A stretch of DNA of 64,000 nucleotides, taken from positions 372,001 to 436,000 of the forward strand of contig NZ_CP034897.1 of NCBI RefSeq assembly GCF_005082145.1, written 5' to 3'. How positions within the stretch are numbered: the first letter of the stretch is position 1; every line of letters begins with the position of its first letter. The DNA is from Buchnera aphidicola (Aphis craccivora). Lineage in GTDB: Bacteria > Pseudomonadota > Gammaproteobacteria > Enterobacterales > Enterobacteriaceae. The notes beneath the pieces were generated by a model. That model had not been told where the DNA came from. It made no database searches and saw only the letters and a program-made list of their open reading frames with translations. A program made the position numbers and the translations under genes. Below are positions 43,565 through 45,017 of the stretch, piece after piece.

Positions 43565-44898
43565 TTAAATTAACTTAATTGTATTTGAAATTGTATTAGC
43601 TATTTTTTTTATTTTATTATGATCTTGGTCTTCTATCATAACCCGAAGACAAGATTCAGTTCCAGATTTTCGAATAAAAATTCGACCAGTATCTCCTAAA
43701 ATATTTTTTGATTTTTCAATAATAGACTGAAATTTTATATTTTTTTCAAAATTTTGATCTTTTTTTAAAAAAACATTTAATAATATTTGAGGAAATAATA
43801 TTACTTGATTAGATAAACAGTATAAAGATGCATTATTTTCAATCATAATTGATAATACTTGTAAACTAGCTATAATTCCATCACCAGTAGAATGTTTATC
43901 TAATAAAATAACATGTCCTGATTGTTCCGCGCCAAGCATCCAGTTTTTTTCTTTAATTTTTTTATATATATAACGATCACCTATTTGTGCAGCAAAAAAT
44001 GGTATTCCAATTTTTTTCAAACCAAGAATAACACCCATATTAGTCATTAAAGTGCCTACTACTCCACCATTTAACTTGTTATTTTTTAAATATTGCTTTG
44101 CAATTATATAAATAATTTGATCTCCATTTACTTCATTTCCTAAATGATCTACCATAATAACACGATCTCCATCACCATCAAATGCTAATCCAATATCAGC
44201 TTTATTTTCAATTACTAATTTTTTTAACTCAACGGTATTGGTAGATCCTGAATTTTTATTAATATTAATGCCATTTGGATAAATAGAATAAGTTATTACA
44301 TTTGCTCCTAAATCTTGAAAAATTTTAGGCGCTATATTATAAGCTGATCCATTAGCACAATCTAATACAATAGTAAATTTAGATAAGTTCATATTTTTAG
44401 GAAATGTATTTTTACAAAAATCAATATATTTTTTTTTAGAATTATTTATTTTTTTAGAAAATCCAAAATTTTTTACATAAGAAAAATCATAAAGAGGATT
44501 ATTTAATTCTTTTTCAATTGAAATTTCTATATCTCTAGTTATTTTAGTTCCGTTTTTAGAAAATATTTTTATTCCATTATCATCAAAAGCATTATGAGAT
44601 GCTGAAATAATAATGCCTGCTGAAGCATTTAAAGATTGTGTTAAATATGCAATTGCAGATGTAGGTATACACCCAGCTGATAAAGTAGAAATTCCTTTTG
44701 ACAGAATACCAAATTCTAAAGAATACTGAAGCATAGATCCTGAAATACGAGTATCTCTTCCAATAATAATTTTTTTTTATTTTCACCTAAAATAGTTCCA
44801 ATAATTTGTCCTAATTTTAACATAAAATCTGGAGTTATTGGTTGTTTACCTACTTTTCCACGTATTCCATCTGTTTTAAAGTATTGAAAATTTTTCAT
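43565..44898 (-). CDS. glmM: Phosphoglucosamine mutase GlmM, split by a one-base frameshift
   Basis: GlmM converts glucosamine-6-P to glucosamine-1-P on the way to UDP-GlcNAc and peptidoglycan. The gene starts ATG at 44898 ([20 protein letters not shown]), then goes out of frame at nine adenines (44770-44778). Adding one adenine restores [17 protein letters not shown] and a 444-residue protein, against 445 in E. coli. Everything after the run is intact, including [11 protein letters not shown] with the phosphorylated serine, AFDGDGDRV and RKSGTES. Without correction, translation ends after 60 residues. Since the rest is well conserved, rescue by RNA polymerase slippage at the A-run is likely; sequencing error or recent inactivation cannot be excluded. 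Confidence 0.92.
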
Positions 44899-44982: not shown

Positions 44983-45017
44983 AAGATGAAGTTATAATAA
45001 TTTTATTACTTCATCTT
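44983..45017 (-). terminator. Terminator downstream of ftsH
   Basis: The arms AAGATGAAGT (44983-44992) and ACTTCATCTT (45008-45017) are perfect complements with a 15-base loop. On the minus strand the stem is followed by GTTTTT. It separates ftsH from glmM; folP, between them in E. coli, is absent. Confidence 0.75.

Follow-up and report, generated by a model that had tools for sequence, protein, structure and literature searches.

In Buchnera, frameshifts in cell-wall genes that are rescued by poly(A) transcription slippage were reported by Tamas et al. (2008, PNAS; as related in passages of PMC5009743 and PMC3164680), and, in Blochmannia, ancient frameshifts in homopolymers that are kept by selection were reported by Wernegreen et al. 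(2010, MBE; as related in a passage of PMC3017870). Events of this kind are also cited in a passage of PMC3890641, while the relevant passage of PMC3164680 terms the homopolymer frameshifts of Buchnera murF, murE and mraY inactivations. This kind of event is already known, then, in Buchnera and Blochmannia. At dnaX, frameshifting yields two isoforms, unlike at glmM, where one required enzyme is concerned and where no stimulatory structure was found. What glmM shares with dnaX-type programmed frameshifting or slippage, as outlined in PMC5009743, is an A-rich slippery run and a one-position shift.

Here we report that glmM of Buchnera aphidicola from Aphis craccivora is divided at a run of nine adenines. 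As in the cases of Tamas et al., in which transcripts were corrected by slippage, the lesion is a frameshift in a long A run of a cell-wall gene of Buchnera; the passages that relate those cases do not mention glmM, and a further difference is that the split here is clade-wide, shows two opposite offsets in sister clades and is known from DNA sequence. It resembles the cases of Wernegreen et al. in being an old A-run frameshift, shared between species, in an undecayed gene, and differs from them (Blochmannia, other genes) in that the run has a fixed length, nine in one set of nine genomes and eleven in another set of four. The lesions in PMC3164680, as far as its passages on them go, lie in the same pathway and are of the same kind. 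No description of a glmM split was found among the papers listed for Buchnera glmM (mrsA), outside which lay most subscription papers and all supplementary tables, nor in the parts of PMC5814848 and PMC9672956 that bear on the gene. What is new is the age of the event in glmM, the two opposite out-of-frame states, and the link to a published puzzle about the cell wall of the Rhopalosiphum maidis symbiont.

Layout and identity of the divided gene

The DNA analysed (the window) is a stretch of 64,000 nucleotides from a genome of 641,853 bases in three contigs. A 3000-base piece of contig 2 is 100.0% identical, over 2973 bases, to the leucine plasmid of Buchnera from Aphis craccivora, which points to that symbiont or one extremely close to it. 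In the window, glmM lies on the minus strand at 43565-44898, between open reading frames that we take to be ftsH on one side and secG on the other (Table 1). The preliminary description had placed the two halves of GlmM in different frames, joined at nine adenines on the coding strand, and had predicted a 444-residue protein if there were ten; the first point is confirmed by the T9 read on the plus strand and by the differing frames of the N-part and C-part ORFs, and the second holds by count (43+12+389). The final A of the tract is the first base of the bridge, which is conserved in all 13 split genomes described below, and the open frame of the C-part extends over 403 aa. No lesion in glmM was seen beyond the change of frame at the tract.

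Table 1. Parts of the divided glmM gene, in window positions
Feature	Position	Strand	Remark
A9 tract (T9 on the plus strand), frame break and proposed slip site	44770..44778	-	break at the same place in 13 of 33 glmM-bearing Buchnera
N-part ORF, 60 aa from ATG	44716..44898	-	GlmM-like until ...GENKKK; out of the GlmM frame from the tract on
Bridge, tract to first downstream ATG, 12 residues in the GlmM frame	44735..44769	-	GlmM only if bridged
C-part, 389 aa from ATG	43565..44734	-	rest of domain I, domains II-IV and what we take to be the catalytic loops

Domain searches found all four PGM_PMM domains (PF02878, PF02879, PF02880 and PF00408), the first of which is cut by the break: the N-part matches PGM_PMM_I at profile positions 2-42, and the C-part, counted from its ATG, matches positions 55-133 together with domains II, III and IV. 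With 492 bits against TIGR01455 (GlmM; cut-off 447.55) the C-part qualifies as a member of the family, and the N-part, in its other frame, scores 27 bits and is alone below the cut-off. The motifs SASHN, FDGDGDR, GAEQSGH and RKSGTE, presumably the catalytic loops and motifs of GlmM, are all inside the C-part. The earlier statement that all catalytic motifs follow the break is nonetheless only nearly right, because the N-part contains the conserved TDGIRG, which we likewise assume to have a role in GlmM.

Two further features of the window may be mentioned. An inverted repeat at 44983-45017, between ftsH and glmM, is probably the terminator of ftsH; a similar repeat follows ftsH in the symbiont of Muscaphis stroyani, which is without glmM. 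When the window genes of at least 200 aa were compared with Buchnera of A. pisum, no further split was found except in one gene truncated by the window end, in a scan at 85% coverage that misses breaks near gene ends and that glmM itself passed.

Distribution and age of the break

We surveyed 36 genomes of the genus Buchnera, 33 of which carry glmM and three of which have no recognisable copy (G005, G019 and G025). The comparison of tract length across other Buchnera, already suggested in the preliminary description, places a split at the same point (profile residues 34-39) in 13 of the 33. The tract is A9 in nine of these (G000, G013, G015, G016, G018, G022, G026, G029 and G032), including the symbionts of Aphis craccivora (G000), Aphis helianthi (G015) and Protaphis terricola (G026), and A11 in four (G001, G008, G010 and G024), including those of Schizaphis graminum (G001) and R. 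maidis (taken to be G008); it is A10 in none. G008 has an extra T after the A11, which changes the offset and leaves the gene still out of frame. An A10 with glmM in frame occurs in G031 (Melanaphis sacchari, the nearest neighbour of the split clades) and in G003; among the other 18 in-frame genomes the longest A run at the site is 5-9 in 17, and one has no run of at least 5. From GRDTR to the stop there are 396-405 unbroken codons in every split copy and 395-398 in the 20 in-frame copies.

On a FastTree phylogeny of the 33 genomes, built from 12 neighbouring genes with glmM left out (4490 aligned residues), the nine A9 genomes form one clade and the four A11 genomes another (support 1.0 each), and both join G031 in a clade that also has support 1.0. 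In our reading both split clades belong to the tribe Aphidini, perhaps as its two subtribes. A Fitch count on the tree gives one change to out-of-frame glmM; the two split clades group together to the exclusion of G031 with a weak support of 0.30, so that the out-of-frame state may have had one origin or two. Because the branches of the A9 clade sum to 0.75 substitutions per site, the out-of-frame state would be old, and in the genomes compared the break is a clade-wide feature that is not private to this genome.

Each of the 13 split genomes carries an intact glmS and an intact glmU, and glmS, glmM and glmU co-occur in 33 genomes. In G005 (Muscaphis stroyani), G019 (Pentalonia nigronervosa) and G025, neither glmM nor, weak hits aside, glmS or glmU was found, and no GlmM-like ORF is present in the 1500 bases that follow ftsH; these genomes may need host-derived UDP-GlcNAc. 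The genes therefore vanish when the step is not needed, and the 13 split genomes keep them. The preliminary description had called glmM essential, which can be upheld conditionally, since three Buchnera genomes appear to do without all three genes. In the A. craccivora symbiont itself, PGM_PMM domain searches match glmM only and so find no second phosphohexomutase; a passage of PMC7245037 reports pgm absent from all sequenced Buchnera. As a side observation, murF is whole in G005, and murB is still present in both G005 and G019, all without glmS, glmM and glmU.

Selection on glmM and the probable bridging of its frame

The C-part has a dN/dS of 0.15-0.37 when split genomes are compared with each other (nine pairs) and of 0.18-0.32 when in-frame genomes are (six pairs). 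Fisher tests on five of the split pairs rejected equal rates in every one, with p values of 6e-8 to 1e-23. For the 29 codons of the N-part, in which changes are few, dN/dS is 0.07-0.43 in nine split pairs. Over the ten codons from GRDTR on, pN/pS is 0.135 for the A9 clade, 0 for the A11 clade and 0.313 for the in-frame genomes; when the three parts of the split genes are compared, the bridge codons come out lowest. Both halves of glmM and the bridge codons are under purifying selection.

The tract is likewise kept. Across 22 genes in the nine A9-clade genomes we found 65 A-run loci, a locus being a run of at least 9 in at least one genome, and a run of at least 9 is retained by all nine genomes at three: those of glmM (9 in each), murF (10-11) and murC (10-14). 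All three are split sites, in 9/9, 9/9 and 5/9 genomes of the clade, respectively. Conservation of a run is no proof on its own, because one of the seven T-run loci in the same survey, in frame in ftsH, is T9 in all nine genomes too. AAG makes up about 7% of the lysine codons of the C-part. Between genes, 6 of 14 still-pure runs changed length (six pairs pooled, with few alignable sites), a result that is suggestive only.

The gene shares three marks with slippage-rescued frameshifts: a single homopolymer frameshift without other lesion, constraint on both sides of it, and presence in several species. The earlier view that glmM is alive and its frame bridged at the tract gains support from dN/dS values like those of in-frame relatives, from the conserved bridge codons and tract, from the retention of glmS and glmU, and from the failure to find a second phosphohexomutase, all of which suggest a functioning gene. 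Since relatives keep the break and selection preserves both halves, the cell most likely still makes GlmM by slipping. That the frame is bridged by one of the two machines, polymerase or ribosome, is on this comparative evidence highly probable, and we think it probable that RNA polymerase slippage does so. A working glmM would then have coding DNA one nucleotide short within the A9 tract; RNA polymerase would slip backward on the run and add one A, the mRNA pool would be mixed, and the minority of expression events that gained one position would give full-length phosphoglucosamine mutase. A single insertion would serve the A9 genomes and G008, and the A11 of G001, G010 and G024 would call for one deletion or two insertions. 

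Passages of PMC5574713 on Buchnera transcription place 151 of 157 insertions in homopolymer runs, with only 15-16 deletions in such runs, and describe rates that climb exponentially with run length; according to the same passages no frame-restoring transcription errors were detected, in a strain whose glmM may be either split or whole. Slippage at glmM could be low, because a run of nine falls short both of the A11 in the sister clade and of the tracts in murF and murC. The lack of a slippage-free A10 in all 13 split genomes is not predicted by a simple rescue of a defect.

The main alternative is that a different machine does the same work, namely the ribosome, by -1 frameshifting on A_AAA_AAA inside the A9. 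The classical heptamer is present in the right phase for A9, the zero frame reading AAA AAA AAA, and a passage of PMC7245037 proposes ribosomal frameshifting in three further Buchnera genes that carry frameshifts. The one-position-short offset that a -1 shift would suit is also prevalent, in 10 of 13 glmM splits, 28 of 29 murF splits, all ten typed murC splits (none being one long) and 7 of 8 typed murE splits, but this excess is no proof of mechanism, because a deletion bias in replication would yield the same pattern. Against the ribosome stand the other three glmM splits (A11), which require the opposite shift, the 60 bases after the tract, where no downstream structure was found (z of -0.73 to 1.35 against mononucleotide shuffles, over all 13 genomes with a split), and the fact that no conserved Shine-Dalgarno-like stimulator was seen by eye. 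We regard ribosomal frameshifting as unlikely and favour slippage by the polymerase, because three of the four A11 genomes have an opposite offset that -1 shifting leaves unexplained: slippage would serve every offset (A9, A11 and G008), and a -1 shift only A9 and G008. We infer that the GlmM product is made and that it is RNA polymerase rather than the ribosome that slips. The A. craccivora symbiont has an AGGTGA ahead of the tract that resembles a Shine-Dalgarno sequence; it was considered as a stimulator and rejected, as it is not kept across the clade.

Alternatively, two polypeptides might be made separately, a short N-part and a C-part started at the downstream ATG, which lies about 12 codons past the tract in all 13 split genomes. 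Gene callers do start there. In a search of public proteins (8000 candidates scored, best 120 of 5702 matches considered), the first 14 clusters among the matches listed are at least 75% identical, with the window's own protein at their head; their representatives, to which the lengths refer, measure 387-408 aa in 13 of the 14 and 389 aa in six. A fifteenth cluster, P0039, reaches the same identity and is a fragment of 330 aa. The same ATG, however, is found in 17 of the 20 in-frame genomes, the C-part alone would miss domain I up to profile position 54, and the out-of-frame tail of the N-part stops at points that differ between genomes. The codons between tract and ATG, untranslated if two polypeptides are made, show the lowest pN/pS of the three parts; bridging is needed for them to be read as GlmM at all. 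The two-piece model therefore fares poorly, and we hold it to be quite improbable. The one full-length representative among the first 14 clusters, 446 aa from Protaphis terricola, must come from an annotation that joined two frames, because the G026 DNA is A9 there; a full-length joined glmM is already annotated for that symbiont.

That glmM is a true pseudogene, recent or in neutral decay, has in its favour that decay usually starts with a frameshift and that a recognisable glmM is missing from three Buchnera genomes, but with a dN/dS well below 1, a second lesion seen in none of the 13 copies, and glmS and glmU whole, it is highly improbable. Long A runs are prone to sequencing or assembly error, but error is scarcely credible for an A9 in nine genomes and an A11 in four that track the tree, with representatives, from several sources, that are truncated alike in 13 of the 14 leading public clusters (best 120 of 5702 matches) and an R. 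maidis genome polished with PacBio and Illumina reads (according to a passage of PMC6451198); an assembly slip or a fresh pseudogene is, in sum, very unlikely. Judged from these sequences, glmM is most likely a real, old and selected gene that depends on slippage.

Other split genes of the wall pathway

Splits are concentrated in genes of the cell wall. By a stricter test, adopted in place of a coverage test that missed breaks near gene ends, split copies number 29/35 for murF, 12/35 for murC, 8/35 for murE and 13/33 for glmM, with one each for murA, mraY and murD and none for murG, or 65 of 276 wall-gene copies against 1 of 396 among twelve other genes. The coverage test had given 63/276 against 0/396. 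Counted by gene, copies within one clade not being independent, 7/8 wall genes and 1/12 others contain a split under the stricter test; the gene-level p of 1e-4 belongs to the first test (7/8 versus 0/12). A or T runs of at least 9 occur in some genome in 11 of the 12 non-wall genes. Neither group includes ftsI, which is split in G031 and partial in G005, or ftsW, of which G005 has a split copy; rplM in G032 and pnp in G000, which are cut by the end of a sequence block, were dropped. Elsewhere in the genomes, glmS is in two pieces in 1/33, murB in 2/35, and leuS and metG in 0/36 each. The sole split among the twelve non-wall genes (33-35 genomes) is that of nusA in G027, whose reading frame changes near residue 436.

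For murC, murE and murF, dN/dS is 0.08-0.42 in both halves, over ten genome pairs in which split and whole copies are mixed. Three of the 65 split wall copies belong to G019 (Pentalonia nigronervosa), without glmS, glmM and glmU, and may be true pseudogenes. In murF, with 29 split and 6 whole copies among 35, nearly all breaks are at the same A-run site and one short. On the 33-genome tree, a Fitch count has murF already split at the root and needs five changes; such an ancestral split would run against the four independent inactivations counted for murF in the passage of PMC3164680 concerned.

The symbiont of R. maidis (taken to be G008) has five split wall genes, namely glmM, murC, murD, murE and murF, and in the pair G008/G010 the dN/dS of glmM, murC, murE and murF is well below 1. 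In PMC9116674, according to the parts at hand, frameshifted coding sequences were removed by script, and murF, murC and/or murE were then scored lost in Aphidini Buchnera; the R. maidis symbiont still builds a peptidoglycan wall, for which compensating enzymes were proposed. The terms slippage, homopolymer and Tamas are absent from the main text of that paper. Slippage would be a simpler answer than compensating enzymes for this wall. We suggest, as a caution, that single homopolymer frameshifts in endosymbionts should not be scored as gene losses, and the pathway-wide pattern of splits makes the open question of the Aphidini cell wall testable.

A further possibility, which we put forward tentatively and consider rather doubtful, is that the wall-precursor pathway of Aphidini Buchnera may be a series of slippage-dependent genes (glmM, murC and murF, in some species murE, murD and mraY) whose out-of-frame state selection itself maintains, so that wall synthesis stays under a low, fixed ceiling. 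If true, such a ceiling would explain why A10 is absent from the 13 split glmM genes, why the fully kept A runs are the split sites, and how the R. maidis symbiont has a wall despite murC, murE and murF being scored lost. Within the A9 and A11 clades, murC alternates between whole and split at one run of A10-A14, and murD of the R. maidis symbiont breaks at a T8A7 junction.
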